Source: Spirogloea muscicola (taxonomy: Eukaryota > Streptophyta > Zygnematophyceae > Spirogloeales > Spirogloeaceae). From it: a stretch of DNA of 41,680 nt. Below, piece by piece: positions 1 through 31,254 of the stretch. Location of the stretch: NCBI GenBank assembly GCA_009602725.1, contig WELB01000023.1, positions 127,027 through 168,706 of the forward strand, written 5' to 3'. The notes below the pieces were generated by a model. It saw only the letters and a program-made list of their open reading frames with translations. It was not told where the DNA came from and did no database searches. How positions within the stretch are numbered: the first letter of the stretch is position 1; each line of letters begins with the position of its first letter. The translations under genes and the position numbers were made by a program.

Positions 1-1
1 C

Positions 2-202
2 CGCGCGCCGCCGGCGCTGGCGTCGCTGTCCGCGTCGGCCCTGCGGTGGCGGCCGTGGAGCCCCTCCCAGGAGCCCACCCCGCAGCACGGCGCCGGAGTG
101 GCGGGCCTCGATGGCGACGTCGACGCGGCGCCCAGGGCCGTCTTGGCGACGGCCGACCCCGACGGCGCGTGGGCGGCGCTGCTCATCATCGGCCGGGACT
201 AA
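2..202 (+). CDS. Possible C-terminal exon of an unidentified gene (5' end outside the window)
   Basis: An open frame runs from the window edge to a TAA at 200-202 and would encode about 66 residues ending in LLIIGRD. Its composition is Ala/Leu/Asp-rich with a short hydrophobic stretch near the end. The GC-rich codon use resembles the 3' parts of genes here, and base composition falls right after the stop. A TGTAA, the usual chlorophyte polyadenylation signal, lies about 55 nt downstream at 257-261. I recognise no family. It could also be chance opening of GC-rich sequence. The start and upstream exons are outside the window. Confidence 0.3.
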   Translation, partial: RAPPALASLSASALRWRPWSPSQEPTPQHGAGVAGLDGDVDAAPRAVLATADPDGAWAALLIIGRD

Positions 203-959
203 GCGCTGGCCCGGCCCCCAAGCCAGCAATGCATACGGCCGCCGACACCCAACTCTTGTAAAGCTGCACCGCGGCTACACCGCGACGTGTTCTGCCCCAT
301 GCGCCGACCAGCGTCCGCTCCTCGTTCCGGCCAGCGGGACTTGGATGTACATATTAGAGACCATGTACAGACGAGGAATAAGCGGCTGAGGTCCTTGGCA
401 TTGGAGGATAGTTCCAGCTCTGCACTTCTTGTTAGCTAGATACTGCCAACTGTACAGCCGGCCGAGTTGCCGTTGCAACTGCTAAAACATCAGCTCTCAG
501 TGCTGGGAATGTTTGTATTACTGCCTCACGCATTAGTGATGGAGCTACTTTCTAGCAACTTGAGCACATTGCCTTATCTCATGGACACAGATGATACTCT
601 ACAGGGCATGGCTGGAAGTTGAGCACCTGATAGGTTGACTTGCGTAATACCCTGTATGTCTTTCTTTTGGCAAAACTATGGCATGTTGGGCCAGCCTGCA
701 AGTGACGGGGCAATGTTGCCATACGGCATTGACCAAGAAACGGGGCAATGGCTGTGAGGTTGACCGAGCGCATTTGGCGGGACAGTAGAGTGGCACTAGG
801 TTAGGGTAACAATGTGGTGCACATCTGAAGGGGAACTTTAGTATCCCGAGTGAGCACATGCAAATCTGCCAGACATATCTGGAGCACCGTCCCGCAAGCC
901 AGTGGCCTGGCTTAGTGCGCACCCAGAGGGAGTGGAACAATGCTGCGCAAAGCGAGAGG
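203..959. other. Intergenic, no gene recognised
   Basis: The sequence is of lower GC than its flanks. It holds a TGTAA near 257 that may be the polyadenylation signal of the preceding exon. A 113-codon open frame on the minus strand (599-940) shows no family motif or splice context and was not accepted. I see no RNA gene. Confidence 0.4.
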
Positions 960-1453
960 CTGCAACGAGTGGAAGAGTAGAGGGAAGAAGAGCATGAAAT
1001 TGAAGGGAGGCCAAATCAAGCCAATGCCGAAGTCAAGCCAAGTGAGAATGAAGAAACTATTTCACTATTCAGGCAAAAGCCGTTACAGACGAATGGGGCT
1101 AAATATTGCGAAGCCTGTTGTCTGCCAAGGGAGTTCACGTATTGAAAGTGGCTCTCCTGAAGGGGGAAAGGGCTGTCACAGAGCCAGCCCGGAAAGATGA
1201 CAAGGTCCGAAGGGCCGAACAGCGCTGTCTCAGAGCTTGCCCGGTAGGATGAGTGACATATCAATCGCGAGTCAGGAAGACTAGCAGCCGGAAGGCAATC
1301 CCCCTGGCGAAGGCCAGTGGCTGCAGCTAGAGCAAGGCCAGCACGCAGGCGGGGCGCATGAATTGATAGGAGGCACACAGTGGTCAGGCAGAGCCTAGTG
1401 CAACTCGCTGCAGGGAAAGAGGCACTCCGCCGAGACCCAGAGGCAGCAGCCAT
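960..1453 (-). repeat. Decayed retroelement tails, minus orientation (at least two copies)
   Basis: Read on the minus strand, 1453-1376 encodes SGSRRSASFPAAS, almost the same as the tail peptide at 34200-34250 on the plus strand. Just beyond it, a second version with LRAGLALAAATGLRQGD matches the tail at 34770-34830. Further on, about 1215-1150 has the module with GGGCTGGCT...ACAGCC, and 1080-1000 carries a module shared with 4757-4832 (minus) and 11500-11548 (plus). The terminal TRGY-stop is lost in both copies. These are nested or tandem remnants of one dispersed element family. Confidence 0.6.
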
Positions 1454-1716
1454 AGCACAGCCCGCTCGCGTGTGAACGGCGTGGGCCAGGAATCGTCAAA
1501 CACGACTCCCGCTCCCCGCAGCTCCGCTGCGCCGCGGTGGCCGCAGGGCGAGGCGCAGGCGCGGGGCTCGCCGCTCGGGGCCCAGGCAGCTGAAGCGGGC
1601 CGCAGGCCGAGCCGGCGCCATCAAATTCCGCGCACAATGACGAGGCCCGACTCCAGCCGCTCCGCTCGCCCTTGACACATGCTGGAACGGCGGAGCGGCT
1701 AGCGGCCAGTGTTTGC

Positions 1717-3925
1717 ATGGGGAGGCCGATCTTCTACGACATCATCCAGCGGCCAGCCACCTCCGCGCTCATTGCCTTCTGCTCCGCCGTCTGGGTGTAC
1801 ATCCAGAAGCACAGCATCAGTGAGCCCCACGCCTTCCTGCGCCACTCGTGCACGAATACTCGCTGCAATTCGAGAGCTCCTCTTTGGCAATCACAGAGGG
1901 AGCACGGCACGGCTGTAGCGCCAACTAAAGGTTGGAAGCTCACAAGGACTTCGTAGGACCCCTCCGCCTTGCTTTTGACGTCCCTCCGCCTGTTTTCGAA
2001 GTCGTTTCTGCACCTTGATTGCGCCACGTTGGAGCTGCACCTTGAGACCGGTAGGTCCATGAATGTGCGATGCACGACCTGATTGTCTTTGTGCTCATGC
2101 AGGCTATGCTGACGTTGGCATCAACTACGAGGCGGTGGTTACGCAGTGCCAGTACTGGCGCCTCCTCACAGCAGCCTTCTCCCATATCAGCGTTGTGCAC
2201 CTGGTCCTCAACATGAGCGCGCTGTGGAGCATCGGCACAGTGGAGGCGCTCGGCAACCTCGGGCTTGGCATAAAATACTACCTGAAGCAGACGCTCCTTC
2301 TCCTCTTACTGTCAGGGCCCCTTGTCATTGCCATGTACCACCTCCTCATCCATCGGTTTCGCTTAGGTGAGTAAGTAAGACGTGAGCCAAGACATGAAAC
2401 ACCCCTCCATCCAGCCTCCCTTCAGTCGCTATTGTGGAATAGCAGCAGGATTGTGCGGTAGATGTCAAGCATTAGGAAAGGGGAAAATCTCGGTGAGCCA
2501 TCAGGCATGTGCATAGCAGCCGTCTGCCCTTTCCCCTTTTCCCATGCGTACTGAACAGTGTGGGTGTCATAATTGCTGTGGACCCCTTTGTACTTCCTGT
2601 GGCTACTGTATGTTCTCATGACAGAGACTACTGTTGGGACAGCCTACTAGAAGCCCAGTGGATTCATCTGATCCTCGTTTCCAAAATCTGAACCTTGCAA
2701 TGTACTTCCCTTCTCAGGGGATCACTTTGCTGCTTTCCTTCAGTTACGCACCTGTGGCTGATCATGTATCCTGCTGTCAGACCATTACAGAAGGGTTGTG
2801 GCGGTCGGGTACTCCTGCGTCGTCTTCGGCTGGATGACGGTGCTGGCGGTCAAGCAACCATCTTCCCGCCTGGACCTCTTTGGGCTCTTCTCCTTGCCCA
2901 TCAATCTGGCCCCCTTGGAGAGCCTGGTGTTAACGTCGATCGTCGTCCCTCAGGTGCAAGTGTTGAGACTGCTGGAAAATAGGATGAACAGGGATCATAT
3001 ATAGAGCTGCTGCTTTCTGGTCATGAGTCAGGAATGACATTGCAATATGGCCCACTCAGGAGACCCTGAAAGGGTAGATGAGCAGTAGCAAGCCTCAATT
3101 GCTTCATCTTGTCAGCGTGCCTGCTTGAGCAGATGAGATTTCCGATAGGCTTTGCAGGCAAGCTTTATGGGGCACCTTGCTGGCATCCTCGTGGGTTATG
3201 CAGTGGCATGGGAGTTATTACCTGCCCTGTCCGACTACTGGGCGGTCTCGCTCCTGCTCTGGCTCACTCTGGGGTTCACTGTGAGCCTCAAGCAAACGAG
3301 TGGGCTCGCAATGCCATTCATAAGCATCCACACCGTCCAGGACCCCACGCTACCAGGTATCTGTGCTCTACTGCATCCAGGCTATCAGATTGATGATGGT
3401 CGTTATTGGTGTTTCCAGAGACGATGAGAGAGCTTGTGTGCATGTTGCCTAGTCATATGCTTGCCTATATCACAAACGCCTCATACAGCAGGTGTGCACG
3501 GCATTTGCAGCTCTGAGACCAGTGAGTGCTGCCACAGCCCACAGAGCAGCCGTGCCCCTTGCTACAAGCCAATCTTCTGAAGGAGATAACAATGTTTGAC
3601 ATTTGACTGTCGACAGTGTAGCTGTCAAGCATGACTTGTCCACGATTGCCACAAATAAGTCTAACAGGCTCTTGTGCAAAGCATGGACATAGTGCACAGG
3701 CCCTCTGCATTCATCTTACCAGACTCAGTCAGAAGAAGCTATCCAGCATGGCGAGGCCTTACGACTGTACAGCAGCATACGAATGGCCTAGCATTCAATC
3801 ATTGACGCTGTGCAGATGCCACCCTCTTTGCAACGCCATGCTTGCCTTTCTGTTTTGTACTTGTAGCTCGGCATCATGTCAAATGCGAAGCGGAGGAGGA
3901 CCTGTGGAAGTGGTCTAATGTGTAG
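1717..3925 (+). CDS. Rhomboid-family intramembrane serine protease (5 exons, about 265 aa)
   Basis: Exons are 1717-1819, 2103-2366, 2781-2953, 3158-3356 and 3867-3925, with GT-AG introns and continuous phase. The protein opens [15 protein letters not shown], then a first membrane helix. Exon 2 has the rhomboid block [16 protein letters not shown], in which His and Asn stabilise the active site. Exon 3 carries GYSCVVFG, the GxS motif with the catalytic serine. Exon 4 has [14 protein letters not shown], the final helix with the catalytic histidine. Both catalytic residues are present, so it should be an active protease cleaving membrane proteins within the bilayer. It resembles plant rhomboid-like proteins of the RBL13 type by start, length and the downstream [13 protein letters not shown]. 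The last exon (short, acidic C-terminus ending WKWSNV) is chosen by phase only and is the least certain part. No organelle transit peptide is evident. Confidence 0.88.
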
Positions 3926-4349
3926 AGAATGTTTAGGCACTGCAAGAAGTGCAGAACAAGCAAACGGCTTTTTTGCGTGCAGAGCATAAGAGGAACAACT
4001 GTGAGACCCTTCGAGAAGGGCAATGGCGGTGTGTGGATACGAACAAGATTGTTCAAGTGATTGGAGCAGGATTGAGTAGCAACGGTGGTCTGGGTGTTCA
4101 TGGGGGGTGGGAAAATGTGTGTATTCATGGGGGGCTGGGGGGAAGGGAGCGCTGCTGGCGGTGGATACCAGTGCATAAAGCCAACTTGATCATGCATTCT
4201 TTTGGACAAGTCTCTGCGCCACCAAATGGCAGTGACACGTACTGGCAAGCCTGGAAAGAATGCAGAGAAACACTTGTCAGCGAGAGGATAAAACCAGCAC
4301 ATAAGTGAGGGCTGGGGCTGGCAGAGGGTGCGGAAGAGGTGAAAGAGAG
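3926..4349. other. Intergenic / 3' region of the rhomboid gene
   Basis: No coding exon or RNA gene is recognised. A G-rich direct repeat, GGTGTTCATGGGGGG then GTATTCATGGGGGG, lies at about 4092-4137. The segment probably holds the rhomboid 3' UTR and merges into decayed repeats. Confidence 0.35.
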
Positions 4350-5125
4350 GCAAGAATGTGGGAAGTCAAAAGACGCCGGAGCAGAGAATTTCACTGAGAA
4401 AATGCATGGGCAGGAGTTGGAAGAGAAGTAGACGATGCTCTTCCAAAATAGGAGATGGCTGTGAAAGGCCAGCCCATAGCAAATGGACAACCTTTTGAAA
4501 TGAGGAGTTGAGAAGTGATGAGTTGGGGACTAGTCCACCAGATGGGGCCAGCCAGCCCAGAAGACTGTTTCACGGGAGTGAAAGGACCGGAGGGGGTGAT
4601 CTGCGCTACCAGGAGAGGCAGTGCCGTGAGGAGCCAGCCGAAGAAGCCGAATGTGAAGTACGATGCTCTTGCTACAGAAGGCGATGGTTGTGAAAGGCCT
4701 GCCCAAGGCATGGTCGAGGTATAGCGAGATGAAGGAGGAGACGTGGCTCAATAAGGTGGGGCGAAAGGTGCGCGACTCGCATAAATCGAAAGGGAGACAG
4801 GTCAAGCCACAACACTGCTCAGGCAAAAGCTGGTACGAAGTTGATGCTACACAAAGCGAAGCCCAATGCTAAGGCGAAAGGCCAACAAGCCCACCTAGGA
4901 AACAGCTCATTCATAGTAAGGCAATGCTGTGTGGGGCCAGCAATCAGGCAATGACGAAAAAATTGGTGTGAGTCCACTCGATGCGTAGCTGCAGTGGCTG
5001 GGGAACAGAGAAAGGGCTCGCCCATTGAGGAGAGGGGCTGGACAAGCCAGCCCTAAAAAGAATGAAGTACGAGTAGGGGGCCTGGGGAAGCGCTAAGGAA
5101 AGCAAGCACAAAACGAAGCATTACT
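4350..5125 (-). repeat. Cluster of retroelement 3' modules, minus orientation
   Basis: Several modules of the dispersed family are stacked here on the minus strand. About 4432-4490 and 4660-4710 are two copies of one stretch (GATGCTCTT...GATGGCTGTGAAAGGCC...CCC). 4757-4832 matches 11500-11548 on the plus strand and 1000-1080 on the minus strand. 5015-5066 is the hairpin module, containing GCTCGCCCATTGAGGAGAGG followed by GGACAAGCCAGCCC, which recurs at 34048-34135. No intact reading frame remains. The repeated modules suggest successive 5'-truncated insertions into one another. Confidence 0.6.
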
Positions 5126-5129
5126 GCTG

Positions 5130-5583
5130 GGAACAGGGCCCTCTCAGTCCCTATCCCTATCCTCAATGGGCGAGCTCTTTCTTCTCAGTCGCCGCTCACT
5201 CGCGGGTACTGAGCTTACCTTAGCATCGTCGTGTGTTGTTTGCCGTTTGGAGTGTAGTCCCTTTCGGCACCTCTTTCTTTAGCTTTGGACATTGTCCATT
5301 CTGTTTCTTCTTCTTTTGGGCTGGCTTTGCCAGCCCCTCGTCTATATGGGCGAGCATTTATCTCTCAGTAGTTTGCCCATATTTTATGGGCTGGCTTTTC
5401 CTCCCCAAAACCCGCCGCTATTGCAAGAGTCTCTCTCTTCTTCTTGGGAAGAAGAAAGTGTGCGCCCATTGAGAAACCCAGCAAAGCCAGCCCAGAAAGA
5501 ATGGACAATGTCAAAAGCCGGAAAAAACAAATAACACACAGCTAGGCAGCTAGAGAATAAGACACGACGAAATCACAGGAAGC
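5130..5583 (+). repeat. Retroelement tail and 3' UTR, plus orientation
   Basis: The terminal peptide remnant LTRGY-stop lies at 5195-5212. It is followed by about 130-150 bases that closely track 34262-34402, including GGACATTGTCCATTC and GGGCTGGCTTTGCCAGCCCC, then the GGGCGAGC motif. The GGGCTGGC...GCCAGCCC part is a short perfect inverted repeat that could fold as a hairpin. Part of the module is then repeated (GCCCATATTTTATGGGCTGGC), and 5462-5515 carries an opposite-oriented copy ending in AGAATGGACAATGTC. This is noncoding and best read as the 3' end of a non-LTR element. Confidence 0.6.
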
Positions 5584-5645
5584 TCAGTACCCCCGGGTGA
5601 GCAACATCAGGTCGGAGTAGCTCGACGCAGGAAAAGAGAGCACCC
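5584..5645 (-). mobile_element. Inverted retroelement C-terminal fragment
   Basis: On the minus strand this encodes SFPASSYSDLMLLTRGY followed by a TGA at 5584-5586. It is the best preserved version of the family's protein tail, matching SFPASSYSDLLLLTRGY at 34230-34280. It faces away from the larger plus-strand fragment starting at 5646, and a perfect inverted repeat spans the junction. The reading frame stays open upstream only across the junction, so the fragment is 5'-truncated at the inversion point. Confidence 0.65.
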
Positions 5646-5662
5646 CTCTCTTTTCCTGCGTC
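5624..5662. repeat. Perfect 17-bp inverted repeat with 5-nt loop
   Basis: The left arm 5624-5640 (GACGCAGGAAAAGAGAG) is the exact reverse complement of the right arm 5646-5662, with CACCC between them. It lies exactly where two fragments of the same element family meet in opposite orientation. Such a structure is expected of a fold-back or twin-priming inversion, and could also be an assembly snap-back. Confidence 0.85.
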
Positions 5663-6653
5663 CCCTCTCTCCAACCCCTTCTCACGCCATTCTCCGCCCT
5701 CGCCCAAGCTTCCGATAGACGGGCACAATCCAGACTGGTTACGGCAGTGGAAGACGAATGTCGCAGAAGGTTGAGGAGGCTGCCAGAGATTGAGAATAAT
5801 CCAAGGAGCCTGGCAAGACTTACTTCTCTAGCCGCACCTGGTGCCACGGATTGGATCACCTCTCACGCCGTCGCCAACGCCTTCAGCATCAGCTCCGAGG
5901 CCTTTCGGACTTCGCTTCAACTCTTCCTCGGCCTCCCACCTAACTGCCTGATCGGGTTGCGGCAGTGCGAGTGCGGCTTCCGTGCAGAGGGTGCTGAGCT
6001 CGCCACTCACATGCTGAGATGCCCCACTGGGCCAGAAGTGGTGGGCATCCACAACCTCCTCCGCGATGCCCTGGCGGGTTTGATGCGCGACGCCGGCTAC
6101 CGTGCAGTCGTGGAAGTCAACGATATCATGCCTATCACCACGGACGCCCAGGGACGTCATCATCGCCGCACACTTGACATTGTGGGCGTGCAACCTGGTG
6201 GAGGACCACGGTCCTCCACGGGCCCTGGTCGACGTTGTGGTAACGGAGGCGTACAAGGGACCAGCATCCACACACATCGCTGGTCACGCAGTGGGCGTTG
6301 CAGAACAAAGAAAGCTGCAGCATTATTCCGACTACCCTCAATGCAATCAGCTCCTGCCAGCGGCAATCGACGTCTTTGATTGTCTGGGTCCTCGTTTCCA
6401 CACCCTCCTCCAAAACATTGCCAATCTAGGCTACACACGTCGTGCAGATGTGTTTCCGGTTGAGTTGGGCTTGCCAGCTGCATATCTGTCTTTCTTGCGA
6501 CGACGTGTTTCTGCCTGTTTGCAGCGTGCTCAGGCTAATGCCTTGCACCAGAAAGCTGGCCGAGCTCTAGTTGGTGGCAGAAGGGCTTCATATCTGACAT
6601 CTAGTATTCAGGCATCGAGTAGCGACCTTTATGTTTTGACCCGTGGTTACTGA
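5646..6653 (+). pseudogene. Frameshifted C-terminal part of a non-LTR-like retroelement protein
   Basis: One frame (from about 5747) has a zinc-finger-like patch, CECGFRAEGAELATHMLRC, then HNLLRDALAGLMRDAGYRAV and RRTLDIVGV. The frame then shifts near 6190-6210, and a second frame continues with VDVVVTEAY, AEQRKLQHY, a LPAAIDVFDCLGPRF block and the tail SSDLYVLTRGY, ending in a TGA at 6651-6653. The order Cys/His patch, 'H..LR.AL...AGY', 'DI...VDVVVT', 'A..K...Y' is what is seen at the C-terminus of reverse transcriptases of several LINE-like elements, downstream of the polymerase. It resembles a restriction-endonuclease-like fold, which is inference. No reverse transcriptase core is present, so the copy is 5'-truncated and dead. 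Confidence 0.6.
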
Positions 6654-7100
6654 GCGGGTCACTTTGCTGTAGATTATGTAGGTCTTTAGATGTGCTTGCC
6701 TTTGTACTTGGCCTTTAGCCTTCGTTTGTTTCAAATACACGAAATCTTATTTTCCTGGCCATTGCCTCACATTGGAAGAGCTGGTCCTCTATGGGCGAGG
6801 AGTCCTTCCTCGGCATCTCATTCTTCGGCTTTGGACATTGTCCATTCTTTTTGGACTGGCTTTGCCAGCCCCTCTTTCTCTATAGGCGAGCCTTCTTCTT
6901 CTCTATGGGCGAGCACATTCTTTTCTTCTCTGCAAAGTGCTCGCCCATAGAGAAGAGTGGCCCTCTCACATTCTACTGTTTTCATGTCATTTCTCTCTCT
7001 CTCTCACTCTCTCTCTCTCTCAGATGGTCTTAAGATGTGCTTCTTGCCTTCGTACTTGGCCATTTGGCCGTCGTTTGTTTCAAATACACGACACTACTCT
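6654..7100 (+). repeat. Retroelement 3' UTR with internal direct repeat and CT microsatellite
   Basis: After the dead ORF, 6689-6748 and 7033-7094 are two related copies of a segment containing GTACTTGGCC and CGTTTGTTTCAAATACACGA. Between them, 6826-6912 repeats the hairpin module (GGACATTGTCCATTC, CTGGCTTTGCCAG, GGCGAGC). A CT microsatellite interrupted by one CA lies at 6992-7021. The same GTACTTGGCC segment recurs at about 35170-35190. The region is noncoding. Confidence 0.6.
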
Positions 7101-7510
7101 CTCAGAGTACGGGGATTGCCGGGGGGCGCGGTAGGGCGTCGTCGGGAAGAACGGTCACTGGCGGCCCGTGCGGCGGGGCGAGGCGGGGTTGGGGTTTGAA
7201 CGGGGGCCCGCCGTGGGTGAGCCGGAAAAACGGGAAAAGGGGGCCAAGCGCTGTGGTCCAATGCTCCTGCCCATGCTATCACCGCAACCCCAGAGCGGCT
7301 GCTTCGCCCGCTCCCACCTTCGCCCCACGCCACCGGCGGCCGCTGTTGGAGCCCACACGGCCCGCCGGGGGCGGGGCAGTTGGCGGAGCCGCTTCCCCCC
7401 TCCTCGGGCCCATCCCTCGCCGCCCGACCCGCGTTCCCGCGCGCCGCACACCCGCGCTCCCGCCGCGCTCGCCGCCGCANCTCCTGGCCATGGCAGCCGC
7501 TCTTTGGGTC

Positions 7511-7551
<41 letters not shown>

Positions 7552-7609
7552 TGCCGGCAGGAGCTCGTCGCTTCCCTCCGGCCCCCGCACAGCGCTTCTC
7601 GCCGCCGAG
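7101..7609 (+). promoter_or_regulatory. 5' region of alpha-tubulin 1 with (GCC)11 run
   Basis: This very GC-rich leader precedes the tubulin start. (GCC)11 lies at 7514-7546, 63 nt before the ATG, and an N gap is at 7480. An ATG at 7490 is in frame with the tubulin ATG without a stop and would add 40 residues with a polyalanine run. Since alpha-tubulin N-termini are essentially invariant (MREIIS), this is read as untranslated leader. I see no clear TATA box. Confidence 0.45.
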
Positions 7610-10293
<2,684 letters not shown>

Positions 10294-10685
10294 TCTAAGA
10301 AGAGGATGGTGGACGTCTTTGTTATAGGCATTGAAGGACAAACTTCCTTACAACACCGTACCTTAGAACGTAGGGCCACAGAGGATGTCGCTTGAGCACC
10401 TATTGTACATTGAGTTCTGGACAGAGCTGAACGTGCTCTCAAGGGTGTGTCCCTTAATCTTCCATTAGGAACATTCTCAACTCGCTGTTCCAGCTCTTCT
10501 GGTACCTCTGCCTAGAATCTTTGTCTTGTGCTCCTAATGTGTCCTAAGCTGCTAAGAGGATGGGATTGGGAGCCTCCAGGCTGTGTGCTTGGCCTTGTGA
10601 GCTGGAGAACTCTGCGCTTCATATTTGCAAGCCCGCACGCTGGTAGCTACAATTGAGGTCGACTTTGTGACAGTGTTGTCTTATT
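10294..10685. other. 3' UTR / downstream region of alpha-tubulin 1
   Basis: Mixed-composition sequence with no exon or RNA gene recognised. It probably contains the tubulin 3' UTR. No TGTAA signal lies close to the stop; the nearest, about 670 nt downstream, is inside repeats. Confidence 0.35.

Positions 10686-21857: not shown

Positions 21858-21905
<48 letters not shown>
21133..21905. promoter_or_regulatory. Shared GC-rich 5' region between Dus and alpha-tubulin 2, with a gap and (GCC)15
   Basis: This divergent intergenic region holds a 14-base N gap at 21305-21318. A perfect (GCC)15 run at 21861-21905 abuts the alpha-tubulin 2 ATG. The tubulin frame is open upstream to about 21501 without a stop, which I treat as leader. 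No TATA box is apparent. Confidence 0.45.
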
Positions 21906-24209
<2,304 letters not shown>

Positions 24210-24979
24210 GGAGCTTACTGCGAACATGGAAGGAGGTGCAAGGAGCACGTCACTGCTGGTGTCGCGAGCTCATTGCTGGCCACCTTGCCTTTTAGAAGCG
24301 TCTTAGTGAGACCACCATGTTTCAGCAAGCTTGGGACCAGCGCCTGAACATGGAAGTAGTGTATGACTGGCTGGCAATGTCAAGAACTTGCTCTCTTTGT
24401 GCGACATCTCTATTCAGATGCCCAGTGCTAGATCTCAACATCAGCATTCCAGTCAAGTCAATGTCTTAATAGATCAAGGGATTCAAAGGCAGCGGCACTA
24501 AGTTTCATTTCTCTTAGGCCCTGCCAATCATTTTGAGTCAATTCTAAGAACCCTTCATTGCGTTTTGGGCAAGTGGCACGCATGGCCATGGTGCTTTGCA
24601 AGCCCTTGGATTTTGAACACCAAAGTAGGGCAATATGGCCCACTGCATCTGCAGCTCCTCTGCAATGTCGGCTGGCTCCTCCATGTATGTTGATCATGTC
24701 CATAGTGGAGTCAGAGATCTTTGCTGGTGAGCTGCTTCTTGGGCTTCGCAGGAGAAGTCAGATAAGAGTAGGACACGCTGTCCGCACCACTGCAGGCTCA
24801 ACAAAGGGGGGCGTGGTCAAGTTCTAGAGGGCCGTGCCCCCACCACGCTCATATCACCTAAGCAGAATATGCCTTCTTTCTTGACTTGAACTTAGACCAT
24901 ATTACTACTTCAACAATCGTGTAGCTCACGATCTAACGGGCTTATAAGTCGGTCAGCAAAAGAAGCACATAATAGGAAG
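24210..24979. other. 3' region of alpha-tubulin 2, no further gene recognised
   Basis: Mixed composition. Open frames here are short and without motifs. No RNA gene or strong repeat was found before the element module that begins near 25064. Confidence 0.35.
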
Positions 24980-25907: not shown

Positions 25908-28900
25908 TCAGTGTTTCTCTGAACGAATTATGATCCAAGAGCTAATGATATAGGCCACGGGCAAGACGAGAAGGAAGACCAGGTCAAGTCTGTAGGTGGC
26001 CCTTGAGGCCTCCTCCATGTTGCGCCAGCTGCGCCACCGCGACCAACTAAGTGACCTGCTGATCGCCCCCTGCACGATGCGCACTGGCGCCAAGGACGCC
26101 GTTTTTGCCAGCGTGTGCACCAGCGACCTTCGCCGGAGTGGAGGCTTGGCATGGCACTTGACTTTGCCATAAGGAGGATTGGGTTGTGCTCCTTCGCCGG
26201 CTGCCAACGAGTCAACTGCACCTTGCTCCTGCTTTGAATCGGTAAAATCATCTGTAGCCACTTCCTGACAGCTCTCCTTACTTGCTCTGCTTGAGCTGTC
26301 GGAGCCAAGCCCGTTGAGTGCTGCAAGGCTTGGGCCGCTGAGAACCGCCCGGTCTTCCTCGTCCACCTTATTTGCCCTCGCCCGGACATACTGTCATCAA
26401 AAGTAAAAGAAAGGGTAATACTTAAGCCGCAGGGGTTCAGATCCTGCCAGCTTGTGCAAAGACAGGTCAAATTGCCAAAGCAGATGCACTTTTGTGCCCT
26501 CATGAGATAATTCGCGACTTTCATGGGCACTTCGTCTTGGCTGGAGCAATGATCCAGACAAAGAAGATCAATACGTAGGGACAGTAAGTATCTTGTAGTA
26601 AATATGTGCTACGCATACCACATGTCTGCAAGTGAAAAGGGGGCATCACCTTGTTCCACAGGGCAAAGACGAGCACACTCTCGCAAGTCCCCACTGAGAT
26701 GGCAACATAACCTGCACACCAGCGAGCCACTGTGGCTCAAGCTTTGGCAGGCAGGCAATGGATGTAAGTGCTGGGCTTCTACTATGTAGCTCCAATACCG
26801 AAGTAATTTGGCAAACATCATCATTTGAGCCAAAGCAGGTCAATGGAGTTCTTTAGTGGCAGGGAATCAAAGTTCAAATGTAGAGTTGTTGAGTGAGCAA
26901 GTTGATAACAACAAATAGCACGAGGAGGTAGCACACTAGCCATACTTATCAAAATAAGAACATGCAAAGTCGTGAGATACGATGAGCTCGGCAGCTGCAA
27001 TTGGCAGAAGCAGTGAGGGTCAGGAACATGGGTTGCAATAGGACTGGCATGCAAATGCAAGGACCATAGCCACCTAGCAACGGAGCAGCTCAGCCAGGCG
27101 CAATCACAAACAATACTCTTCCCGGTGTCCTGGCTATGAAGCAAGGCATCAATTAAAGCTGGAGAGAAAAGGTGTACCTGCCCATCAATGACAAACTGGA
27201 GAGCAGTGAGGGCTAAGAAGAATGTAACCGAAGTCCCTAGGCGAGCTGCGAGCTCCTCGGGATGGATGCAAAAGGTGATCCACGATAGCATGGTGGTCAG
27301 AAAGAGGGGGAAGAGCATCTGCAGCACGGACACAGCCGTCGAACACAGTCGTTACGCAGCATATTCAAGGATTGTGGCTGTTGGTATGGCCATCACAAAG
27401 GCCAAAATATGACCATCTGCTAGCCATCCTCTGTCCCCCCCCCTTCCGAGCACCCTGCTAAGGCCACTTGCACCAGCGCTCGGTATGTATGGACGTAGCC
27501 TAAGCTTTTATTACTGCAACCATCACTGTGTCATCAGGGTCAGGAATATCTTACACTCCAGAAGTAGTATGTCGAAAGTCGCTCAACCTGCCATGTGTTC
27601 CAAGAAGTTGCATATCATTCAGCTTGGCAAAGTCTTCGAATCACTCCCGGATTGCAAGTCCGACAGAGTTTCTGCTGACAGCATCTCTACTCTCAGCATT
27701 GTAACTGGCCAGCGTTGTGAAGCATCCTCACTTGAATCTCAAGGATTAGAACATCGTGTGAAAATTGTACTCCTGGTTGACTTGCATTCCCGGGACCATA
27801 AGGGTATGGGTCAGCTGCAAGATAAGTGATTTTGCAATCAGAGCTAATGCTCATCACCATCCCCAAGCTTTTCACAGCTGAGACATATACGCTGGCCGTG
27901 AGTGAACATCGTGGTCTGCCAGCAGTAGCCCTGTGTGTCGTCGGTAACAAGGACCGCATAGCACAGTACTCAACAAAGCATCGCAAGGAGGCCACAATCT
28001 TCCTCAGAATGTAACTGTGAACTACCTGGATTGGGCTTGGTCGCAAACTTGGTGAATAATTGGTCGTCCAGACTTTCCAATGTAAATCTGAGCGCCTTGA
28101 CGGACCACCCGCTGAGCTCATCATAGTGTCGCGTCCACTCTGTGGCATTGCTGTGGGAAAGCCCAAACCTGGTGGCAGTGGAGCTCCCATGCAGCGACCC
28201 CACCGGCAGGACGTCCAGCGTCAAATATACAATGAGGCTCTGCAAAAACAATCGGCAGGTTGTAGATGGACAAAGCCTCCAAATTTACTTAAAGGTTGTC
28301 TGCCCGAATGACCTTGGGCTTCCATGTTGACTCTAGATCTTACAGACTGCAGCACATTAAGCTTGACAAGCAAGCATCCATTGTTGTAACACCAATGCTC
28401 CCACCTGCTTGTCAAAAGGAAAAGCTTTGAAAGAGTAATCCGTGTAGAAGACACCTGTCACAAAGCTCGACTCTGCTCATTGAGAACTGAAGCACAGGCC
28501 CTAACATGCCCATTATTCTAAGACAGCATTGAAGGCTCCACATGCCAGCAATAGCAGACTTTGCTAAAAACAGAAATCTAGCATCCATAGAATCGTGGCA
28601 CCTGCCAAATGCCAGCACTACAACACTTCTAGCTCCGAGCGCAAAGATAAGTACCATGAATCCTCTTCTCCCAGGACAAAGAATTATTGCTGCGACCACC
28701 AAGGCTGATCGCCTCTGCATGTCAATCACAAGAACATGACTTCATCACAGCATGTCATCTTGGACAAGAACGTAGTTAATCCAAGAATTTAAAGATTGAA
28801 GCCTGTAATGTTTGTGTCCTTCTGAGCAGGTAGGAATTGAGAATTTCGGCTTATATTGCGCTGAGATTGACAGCAAAGCATCGACCTGCCACCCCTGCCA

Positions 28901-30272
28901 CACCTGCCTACAAGTCCAAAGAAGGTGGAGCAGAGCAAAAGCAGAGCACTGTGAGGGTGCTCAGCCTGCCTAAGACAAAGTGAAGTAGTAACCTGTTTCC
29001 ACGCGGCCCTGTGGCAGCTCAATTATGTTGCGAATGCTCGCTCCAGGAAGCCACACGCTGTCGCAGCAAGGTGCAAAGTCCTGTGCACAGAGCCTTGCGC
29101 AAGCTTTCCCTCCAGCTTCCACTTCAGCAGTTCTGCGAGAAATCTCTGCTGGTGCTGGCAATGCTCAAACAATAAACAAAGTCAGCCCGTTATTGACCTG
29201 GCTGCCCTGCATTCGAAAGGTGGTGGACTGGGACTGTAAGTTGCTAAGCATATGCAGCAGCTCGACGGTCCACGGCAAACACCTACATACTGTGCTGCAC
29301 TGGCGACTCCTAGCAGACACGCCAGCCAAGCCGGCATCCAGCACAACAGAAGGGTACTAGTGCTGCACAGCAGCCCGAGCATCCAGGAGGACAGGCCAGA
29401 CAACTATGCATGTGCGACCTGGGGACTTCAAATATCAAGGCTTCCTAAGGGAGGCTACTGATGAACGGTACACCAACCTCGTGGATCGGACCACGAGAGC
29501 ACCATGAAGAAGATGGCCTCGAAGCTGTAGCTCACATCTGCCAGTCAGCAAGCAAGTGACCTCCTTGGAAGCGTGAGAAGAAGCATGAGATGAAGGGTTT
29601 CTCTGTCCACAAATTTTCACTCAATTGCCAGCTATTAGTGTCCTCCTCATGCAAGGTCTGCCACGACTCTCAGGAGAAGACGCACGTCCCGGCACAGCTG
29701 GAGTCTCGGGGCCGGCACAAAGGACCCCTGGCATCCGTCGATCGAGCTGCATTTGGCCGGCTGCTAGCAATCTTGACAAAAGGCTGTCCATTGGACTCGG
29801 GACCCTCTACTACCCCATACACGTCCAAGGCCCCCCCGCTAGAACAACGATGACCAGAATTGGCGCAGTGACGGGCTTGACTCCAAGCTCGCTGATACGC
29901 TCGGAAAGTGGGGACGATGCCAAGAGCGCACCGTTGACGTGGAGCAAGCGCTCGAGGAAGACGCTGACAAAGACGGGGTGCGACTGCGTGCCAGCCGGCG
30001 GCTTGCCCTGCCCCGCAAAGGGCTGCAGCATCTGCGCGTCGGCACGGCGTCCCAGCAGCAGCAGCAGCAAAGGCAGCAGCGCGGCCAGCAGCGACAGCCG
30101 CAGCAGCGGGGCGCCGCCCGCCGCCCGTCGTCGACGCCGCGGCGGCCCTGTGCGCTCCGGCGGCCAAGGCCTCAAGAGCTCCGGCTCGCCGAGGAGGACG
30201 CCGCCGCCCCGACCCNCTCGGCGCCGCCGCCGCCGCCGCCGACGCGCCCGCCGCCGGAGGCCGCGGCGGCAT
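25908..30272 (-). CDS. Pentameric ligand-gated ion channel subunit (Cys-loop superfamily, pro-loop type), 12 exons
   Basis: Minus-strand exons are about 30272-29932, 29537-29478, 29145-28993, 28714-28655, 28472-28405, 28239-28026, 27814-27732, 27587-27555, 27318-27178, 26994-26946, 26711-26650 and 26390-25908; every junction is GT-AG and in phase, giving about 580 aa. In order: signal peptide (PLLRLSLLAALLPLLLLLL, then ADAQ), first strand VFVSVFLERLLHVN, FEAIFFMVLSWSDPR, VWLPGASIRN, the pro-loop FKAFPFDKQ, a loop-C segment, then M1 (TYYFWS-MLFPLFLTTMLSW), M2 (RLGTSVTFFLALTALQF), the M2-M3 turn LPSSSYLT, M3, a basic cytoplasmic loop of about 110 residues and M4 (RLDLVFLLVLPVAYIISSW). This is the complete architecture of a subunit that forms a five-fold channel opened by an extracellular ligand. 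Both Cys-loop cysteines are replaced (Thr and Leu). NNS, NAT and NAS glycosylation sequons occur in the extracellular part. The N at 30216 leaves the start codon uncertain. Ligand and ion selectivity cannot be told. Confidence 0.93.
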
Positions 30273-30528
30273 TTGCGGCAACTCGCGTGCGGGGAGAAAG
30301 AGGCAGTCGGCGTCGTTGGCGTTCTGCTCGACGGAACGCATTCTTCGTCGTAACCGTTTGACGCAGCGTCTAACCGTCTGAGGACGTACCAATGCCCATC
30401 ATTCTTTTCCCGCTGGAGAGCGGCCCTTGATGAAGGCGTCGGAATCCTAAAACCCTCCCCGAGTTCTGAACCCCACTTTCACCAGCAGTCCACCAAGTGG
30501 TCCGCGTGCGCAGAGGGCGCCGGGCGCC
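30273..30528. promoter_or_regulatory. Divergent 5' region between ion-channel gene and DUF1764 gene
   Basis: About 256 bases separate the inferred channel ATG (minus strand) from the DUF1764 ATG (plus strand). The short spacing implies a shared or bidirectional promoter. I see no TATA box. An AACCCTCCCC stretch lies near 30452. Confidence 0.4.
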
Positions 30529-31254
30529 ATGGCGCCGGCAAGCCGGAAGCGGGTGGAGCGGCTCGGAGGCCCTGCGGCAGGTGATGCGCGGCGGGGCCTG
30601 GCAGAGGCGGCGAGCGGGGCGGGCAGAGGGACGGCGCGGCCGAGCCGAGGCGAGGAGGAGCCTGGGAAGGCTGCGGGCAGCGTGGGCAAGAAGCTGCGGC
30701 TGGCCGGCAAGAGAGGAGTGAACGGGAAGCGGGCCTCCAGAGATGGGGCGAGGAGGACGGCGGTGGTGGCGACGGCGACGACGACAGCGACGACGGCGGA
30801 GCCCGGTGCTGCCGGAGCGGCAGAGGCAGAGGGAGCCGTCCCCAGCACCGGACCGGCCGCCGGCGTGGCTGCTTCTGGCGGACGTGGTGGCGGCGGCGGC
30901 GACATCGACAGCATCTTCGAGCTCGCGAAGAGGAGACGCAGCAGCAACGGCACAACGGCGAGTACGTCGGGGCCGCCCCCAACTGCAAGCGAGGGACGAG
31001 AGAGCCCACTAGGGAGGCTGGGCGAGAAGGCGAAGCCGTCAAGCGGCAAATCACCGACCGCCAGCAGAAGGGCGGCGTCCAAACGCGCGCATGAGCAGGG
31101 GCCGCCGTCTGGAGATGGTGCTGGTAACGCCGGGCGGCGGCGGACTGCCGACGGCCTGCCTATATATTGGGAGGAGGAGCTCCAGTTGGGCAGCCGAGCG
31201 GCGGACGCTGGCGGGACTGAGCTCTGCCCCTTCGACTGCAAGTGCTGCTACTGA
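30529..31254 (+). CDS. DUF1764 protein (single exon, 241 aa)
   Basis: An intronless frame opens MAPASRKRVERLGG. Most of it is low-complexity, rich in Ala, Gly, Arg, Ser and Lys. The conserved part is at the end: DIDSIFELAKRRR (about residues 125-137), then RRRTADGLPIYWEEELQLG and the terminal CPFDCKCCY. This pairing of a short 'DIDDIF..K' patch with 'RR.TeDGl.IY..EEL' and 'CPFDCxCCF' is the DUF1764 family, widespread in eukaryotes and of unknown function. The clustered cysteines could bind metal, which is inference. Residue 241 is Tyr rather than the usual Phe. The basic composition suggests a nuclear protein. It is divergent from the ion-channel gene. Confidence 0.88.
   Translation: MAPASRKRVERLGGPAAGDARRGLAEAASGAGRGTARPSRGEEEPGKAAGSVGKKLRLAGKRGVNGKRASRDGARRTAVVATATTTATTAEPGAAGAAEAEGAVPSTGPAAGVAASGGRGGGGGDIDSIFELAKRRRSSNGTTASTSGPPPTASEGRESPLGRLGEKAKPSSGKSPTASRRAASKRAHEQGPPSGDGAGNAGRRRTADGLPIYWEEELQLGSRAADAGGTELCPFDCKCCY

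Follow-up and report, generated by a model that had tools for sequence, protein, structure and literature searches.

A gene probably encoding a Cys-less pentameric ligand-gated ion channel subunit in the streptophyte alga Spirogloea muscicola

Introduction

In the parts of two earlier papers drawn on here, pentameric ligand-gated ion channels (pLGICs) are reported in Chlorophyta (Chlamydomonas and Chlorella; 2016, PMC4795631), land plants are described as missing several channel families including pLGICs, and many of these families, which chlorophytes have, were apparently lost on a wide scale in the streptophyte lineage (PMC11085791). Here we describe a gene on the minus strand of contig WELB01000023.1 (contig 23) of Spirogloea muscicola. 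The whole stretch of 41,680 nt that was analysed is called the window, and coordinates are positions in it unless another contig is named. We hold with a probability of about 0.85 that its product is a Cys-less pLGIC subunit and that the gene is native to this zygnematophyte alga. The original prediction for the locus had spoken of a green-alga-like genome and of signalling not described in this lineage. The genome is indeed of the green lineage, though of a streptophyte (Zygnematophyceae) and not of a chlorophyte, and for green algae in general the second claim fails on the Chlamydomonas and Chlorella channels already described (PMC4795631). What is new is the streptophyte occurrence, in an unexpected lineage, the kind of channel itself being already known. 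Our searches of the open-licence literature found no report of a pLGIC in a streptophyte alga, and a report elsewhere is possible.

Gene structure

As originally proposed, 12 open minus-strand exons join in phase, and their visible coding part runs from 30215 to 25908, closing with a TGA stop codon (25910-25908). All 11 introns are GT..AG and are kept in the homeologous copies described below. The joined protein is 557 residues long if numbering starts at the first complete codon just after an N at 30216. It reads in the order hydrophobic leader, RADA/Q, extracellular domain with three N-glycosylation sequons, pre-M1 Arg, the helices M1-M3, a loop some 130 residues long and M4, and the motifs quoted beforehand (LSWSDPR, VWLPGASIRN, FPFDKQ and others) were all found in it. 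The visible part of exon 1 (29932..30215) holds the hydrophobic leader LSLLAALLPLLLLLLGRRADA and the first strand of the ligand-binding domain (LBD), VFVSVFLERLLHVN; exon 2 (29478..29537) continues the LBD with YSFEAIFFMVLSWSDPR, and exon 3 (28993..29154) carries the motif C131-x3-C135-x6-C142C143D-x2-W together with WLPGASIRN of loop A. Still within the LBD, the sequon NNS is found in exon 4 (28655..28714), the Cys-less Pro-loop FPFDKQ in exon 5 (28405..28454), and the conserved Trp of LSGW248 with the sequon NAT in exon 6 (28026..28239), while exon 7 (27732..27814) comprises the loop C region, the last LBD strand and the sequon NAS. Exon 8 (27555..27587) is a micro-exon of 33 bases (VERLSTYYFWS) that carries the pre-M1 Arg305. 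M1 (Pro317) and the M2 pore helix (R0', G2', T6', L9', D19') share exon 9 (27178..27318), followed by the M2-M3 loop (Pro362) and the start of M3 in exon 10 (26946..26994), the remainder of M3 in exon 11 (26650..26711), and the M3-M4 cytoplasmic loop, M4 and the stop codon in exon 12 (25908..26390).

The ATG at 30272, put forward originally as the start, is ruled out, being out of frame with exon 1 and the LBD as assembled. The single N at 30216 (30216..30216, no strand) stands for a collapsed gap in the assembly, in which the start codon is hidden: at this place contig 62 holds 212 bases and contig 154 holds 170, each stretch with its own N and an ATG, and the start codon of the window gene is therefore placed inside the gap. 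It also follows that the count of Ns is no guide to the size of a gap. Single Ns stand at 7480, 12016 and 35448 as well, and all four may be collapsed scaffold gaps.

Family membership and fold

The predicted protein passes the cut-off of PF02932, the family of the four-helix transmembrane domain (45.7 bits against 28.1). So do its two homeologs (with which it forms class 1), a paralog in the same genome (class 2) and a protist protein (P0003), which from its CFRG prefix we take to be that of Creolimax fragrantissima, presumably an opisthokont protist. Among solved structures found by sequence the ELIC-type chains lead (best row 5hew_A at 7.9e-13; 2yn6, named ELIC, at 7.4e-12), the depositor labels of these chains being mixed. 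A three-sequence profile built from the class 1 protein, the class 2 paralog and the Creolimax protein improves the two matches to 1.2e-21 and 7.0e-21; the LBD stretch, which with the class 1 protein alone lies at 0.032-0.29 against ELIC, reaches 1.7e-6 in the best row, and the transmembrane stretch 1.8e-12. A structure prediction from 30 sequences, for which 27 of the 48 prokaryotic loci described below were included in the alignment, gave a fair model, whose fold match spans 79-558 and takes in both domains.

The hallmark residues of the family were judged against Table 1 and the text of the 2016 survey, in the part used here (PMC4795631): the [F/Y]PxD at the beta6-beta7 tip is present as FPFD (198-201), and the pre-M1 Arg as Arg305. 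Micro-exon 8, which carries the latter, is kept in all three class 1 copies, and the beta9 Trp (W248), the M1 and M2-M3 prolines (P317 and P362), the cationic 0' residue (R339) and the Leu at 9' (L348), placed by alignment, are all present as well. The two cysteines flanking the beta6-beta7 loop are not there, Thr and Leu standing at these places by the usual Cys-loop spacing. By its predicted sequence the protein is Cys-less and falls in the wider Pro-loop superfamily, outside the Cys-loop receptors in the strict sense.

Homeologous copies and selective constraint

Two homeologs of the gene are found in EukProt, SM000062S19953 (s62:671636-675758) and SM000154S01389 (s154:154214-158558). In the genome the match on contig 154 starts at 154214 and its last piece closes at 158555, and that on contig 62 closes at 675755; adding a stop codon to each gives the EukProt ends. 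P0002, the public protein model for contig 154, begins upstream of the leader, at the first base of s154:154214. The class 1 frame is open in each of the three copies, their splice sites are kept throughout (donors 33/33, acceptors 33/33), and exons 2-12 align without gaps, the sole length difference being six bases in exon 1 (leader) of one copy. Most of the window aligns with contigs 62 and 154, the main pieces being 80-91% identical (for contig 154, positions 1-3400 lie outside the stretch compared). The three homeologous blocks agree with the recent genome triplication of S. muscicola, as reported in the part of that work drawn on here (PMC10487979). One piece of the window, 1-10652, runs against contig 62 (649,414-659,331) in the orientation opposite to the rest, which could reflect a rearrangement between homeologs or a difference in scaffolding.

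The ratio of nonsynonymous to synonymous divergence (dN/dS) for the three class 1 pairs is 0.31-0.44, over 557 codons, with the stop codon and 2 gapped codons dropped. M1-M3 is strongly constrained, with dN of 0.005-0.017 against dS of 0.045-0.208. The triplicated blocks, the kept splice sites and frames and the constraint on M1-M3 together rule out both contamination and a chance join of exons.

A second channel class and its relics

A paralogous set, class 2, is present in the same genome on contigs 42, 171 and 8 (loci L022, L021 and L023). The model drawn by hand for contig 42 has 562 residues, the architecture of class 1 and a PF02932 score of 50 bits; it is 35% identical to class 1 and has an extra LBD loop with the sequons NYS, NST and NTT. 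As many as 9 of the 11 class 1 introns have a class 2 counterpart that agrees in position and phase, against a mean of 0.34 and a maximum of 4 in 20,000 random placements (one column allowed). The count is somewhat favoured by the class 2 model having been drawn with class 1 in view, and one of the nine introns is that before exon 12 of class 2, with an acceptor in doubt on contigs 171 and 8. Because the positions and phases coincide to this extent, the two classes most likely go back to a single gene that already had introns.

Each of the three blocks also has, downstream of class 2, truncated channel relics with M1-M2 and M4 only and with stops. On contig 171 (G000:C171, about 24,250-24,750, minus strand) the stop comes before M2, and on contig 8 (about 358,360-358,845, minus strand) and contig 42 (about 749,550-750,195, plus strand) it lies inside M4. 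They are the remains of a decayed third copy, a duplicate that predates the triplication since it is found in every block. A further weak genome match (G000:C64:331704, locus L024) was rejected: no other channel exon was seen at the locus, and the match, which itself contains a stop, falls on a part of P0002 that is partly intronic.

Relatives and the four-cysteine motif

Three protein searches, with 3, 2 and 2 hits, returned only the two homeologs and P0003 (30% identity), with no other streptophyte or chlorophyte sequence. These searches reach only sequences with shared 5-residue words, and in two of them only the roughly 8,000 candidates sharing most words were scored, which is why the chlorophyte pLGICs known from the literature were missed. 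The prokaryote collection was scanned with two patterns, one of them the four-cysteine motif described below; of 111 stretches matched, 48 encode a relative. Trees of 54 sequences, 48 of them prokaryotic, were built with the damaged class 2 copy of contig 8 left out, and in a rebuilt tree two prokaryotic loci (L031 and L070) were represented by their best-overlapping channel reading frames. The two Spirogloea classes group together with support 100 in the first tree and 97 in the rebuilt one, and the Creolimax protein joins them with support 100 in both, apart from all 48 prokaryotic sequences. Of the phylogeny proposed originally, with bacterial, protist and animal members, these trees cover prokaryotes and one protist protein beside the Spirogloea classes.

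Two other origins were considered and dropped. The tree gives no support to a bacterial one, as the Spirogloea classes do not fall within a bacterial group, and for a viral one, none of the 27 pattern matches in viral contigs encodes a relative. Among the prokaryotic loci themselves, the pLGICs of Pelagibacteraceae (L027-L032, L041-L045) have about 480-525 residues (L039 has 308) and a longer N-terminus than the other prokaryotic ones. One of them, L031, has two adjacent channel reading frames (1161-2723 and 2737-4275), and L070 (Sutcliffiella) has a second channel frame at 2675-3625 next to the one that matched.

Class 1, class 2 and the Creolimax protein have in common the motif C-x3-C-x6/7-C-C-D-x2-W-[LV]-P-G just before loop A, and its four cysteines are invariant in the three sequences. 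The Pro-loop pattern is present in 48/48 prokaryotic relatives and CC[DEN]xxW in 0/48, and within the data analysed the motif sets these Cys-less channels of eukaryotes apart. It may give a disulfide that replaces the absent Cys-loop bridge. In the part used here, the 2016 survey does not show the four-cysteine motif, and it leaves open what stabilises the fold in the Cys-less channels of eukaryotes (PMC4795631); the motif would be a possible answer.

Evidence against the assignment and alternative explanations

A number of results weigh against the assignment of the gene to a working pLGIC. PF02931, the ligand-binding family, scores 17.2 bits against a cut-off of 26, so that the search with both families, suggested along with the original prediction, came out divided between a passing transmembrane domain and an LBD below its cut-off. 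For this reason the full LBD claimed originally rests on the ELIC alignment and the fold match, the extracellular beta-sandwich being recovered by fold and profile and not by Pfam. A search of the S. muscicola genome with PF02931 gave 0 matches, but it detected 0/14 controls too. Two further family searches bearing on lineage are given no weight: XET_C had 0 matches, with 0/14 controls detected, and NB-ARC had 3 weak matches. The class 1 gene model is predicted from genomic sequence, and the public models of both homeologs (P0001 and P0002) skip exon 8 and add intronic residues. With these errors, and with no PF02931 match in either protein, the genes would be hidden from strict domain surveys. 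A first structure model from 3 sequences was useless (predicted local distance difference test 33), and no ligand site was recognised. Beyond M1-M3 the class 1 constraint is only modest: the extracellular domain has a dN/dS of about 0.34-0.64, M4 of 0.48-0.75, the leader of 0.56-0.87 and the M3-M4 loop of 0.28-1.1 (ratios of computed values, without a significance test). Class 2 is in a poorer state. The contig 42 copy, intact as modelled and with canonical sites, is the sole intact one of the three; the contig 171 copy is open over the same exons; and the contig 8 copy has frame-breaking length changes in exons 1 and 12. Since the acceptor of exon 12 as drawn is not AG on contigs 171 and 8, this junction is either wrong or damaged. 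Class 2 dN/dS (528/563 codons used) is 0.80 between contigs 42 and 171 and 0.98 and 1.01 for the pairs with contig 8, so constraint on this class is weak, or hard to see at low divergence (dS 0.044-0.059).

These class 2 ratios of 0.8 or more and the damaged or doubtful copies, together with the only moderate class 1 ratios and the stop-bearing relics in three blocks, are what one would expect if the fold were kept in a gene that is no ligand-gated channel today, being either in decay or a non-conducting receptor. We consider this improbable, as all three class 1 reading frames are open, M1-M3 has hardly changed (dN 0.005-0.017) and the conserved gating-related residues are retained. That the scaffold comes from an animal or bacterial contaminant is scarcely conceivable: evidence for it was looked for and none was found, the intron-rich gene lies in three homeologous blocks whose main pieces are 80-91% identical, with DUF1764, dihydrouridine-synthase and tubulin genes nearby, and the same genome has 68 stretches matching the light-harvesting family PF00504. 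The original view of contamination as unlikely, which pointed to the ordinary nuclear neighbours, is borne out by the triplicated blocks. Of another weight is the possibility, to which we give somewhat less than even odds, that the gene, still a functional pLGIC, was not inherited from a green-lineage ancestor but taken up laterally, from another eukaryote or, in ancient times, from a bacterium. It would account for searches that gave just two homeologs and one protist protein with no other green relative, and for the patchy protist distribution, for which the 2016 survey, in the part drawn on here, itself suggests lateral transfers (PMC4795631). Against this, the search method missed even the literature-known chlorophyte members, the two classes cluster together (100; 97) and with Creolimax (100) outside the bacterial groups, and 0/27 viral candidates encode a relative. 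Any such transfer must also be old, because 9 of the 11 introns are common with class 2 in place and phase. A broader reading includes the view that embryophytes lost the channel only later; we take this reading to be less likely than not, and hold it slightly lower than we otherwise would because 1/3 class 2 copies is intact as modelled.

Proposed mechanism and significance

If the gene encodes a Cys-less pLGIC subunit, five subunits, of class 1 alone or mixed with class 2, would come together in the plasma membrane or in an endomembrane, and a small ligand would bind between adjacent extracellular domains. The Pro-loop (FPFD, Asp201), together with Arg305 before M1, would transmit the movement to M2, where the Leu9' ring would open. 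Neither -1' nor -2' of M2 is acidic in class 1, whereas ELIC and the Creolimax protein have Glu at -1' and class 2 has Glu at -2'. Because class 1 lacks such a residue, we lean slightly towards a class 1 homomer that is anion-passing or weakly selective; a heteromer of class 1 and class 2 might pass cations. An alga of the group apparently closest to land plants would carry, in genes that look intact, the channel type that animals use at synapses and that land plants are missing, and fast ligand-gated signalling in a close relative of land plants would become directly testable.

Genomic neighbourhood

Upstream of the channel gene and head-to-head with it lies a DUF1764 gene (66.7 bits), with a likely ATG at 30529; the two have a short common 5' region (30216-30529), which could be a two-way promoter. 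A dihydrouridine synthase gene is nearby (41.3 bits). Downstream is a tubulin gene, which we take to be alpha, with one exon at 51.5 bits and its two first exons just below the cut-off. There are two tubulin genes in the window (7500-10290 and 21895-24174), about 14 kb apart and in the same orientation, and they are also found in both homeologous blocks. Rfam and tRNA scans of the window gave 0 matches.

Comparison with known systems

With the Cys-less Pro-loop receptors of protists and green algae described by Jaiteh, Taly and Henin in 2016 the Spirogloea protein has in common the F/YPxD without flanking cysteines, the pre-M1 Arg, the M1 Pro, the M2-M3 Pro, the beta9 Trp, the cationic 0' residue and the Leu at 9' (PMC4795631). 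In its part drawn on here this survey names Chlorophyta and reports none in multicellular plants, while the Spirogloea gene is that of a streptophyte and has the four-cysteine motif. The animal Cys-loop receptors (nicotinic, GABA-A and glycine) differ by their Cys-loop disulfide, in place of which the Spirogloea protein has T and L. ELIC (Erwinia) and GLIC (Gloeobacter) are Cys-less like it, and both of its domains align to ELIC; their chains, however, have about 320 residues against 557, the ELIC alignment is without the four-cysteine motif, and ELIC has Glu at -1'. The Creolimax protein (CFRG7252T1), although it too has Glu at M2 -1' (GER) where class 1 does not, is 30-32% identical over most of its length and shares both the C-x3-C..CCD-x2-WLPG motif and FLALTALQFVI in the pore helix.

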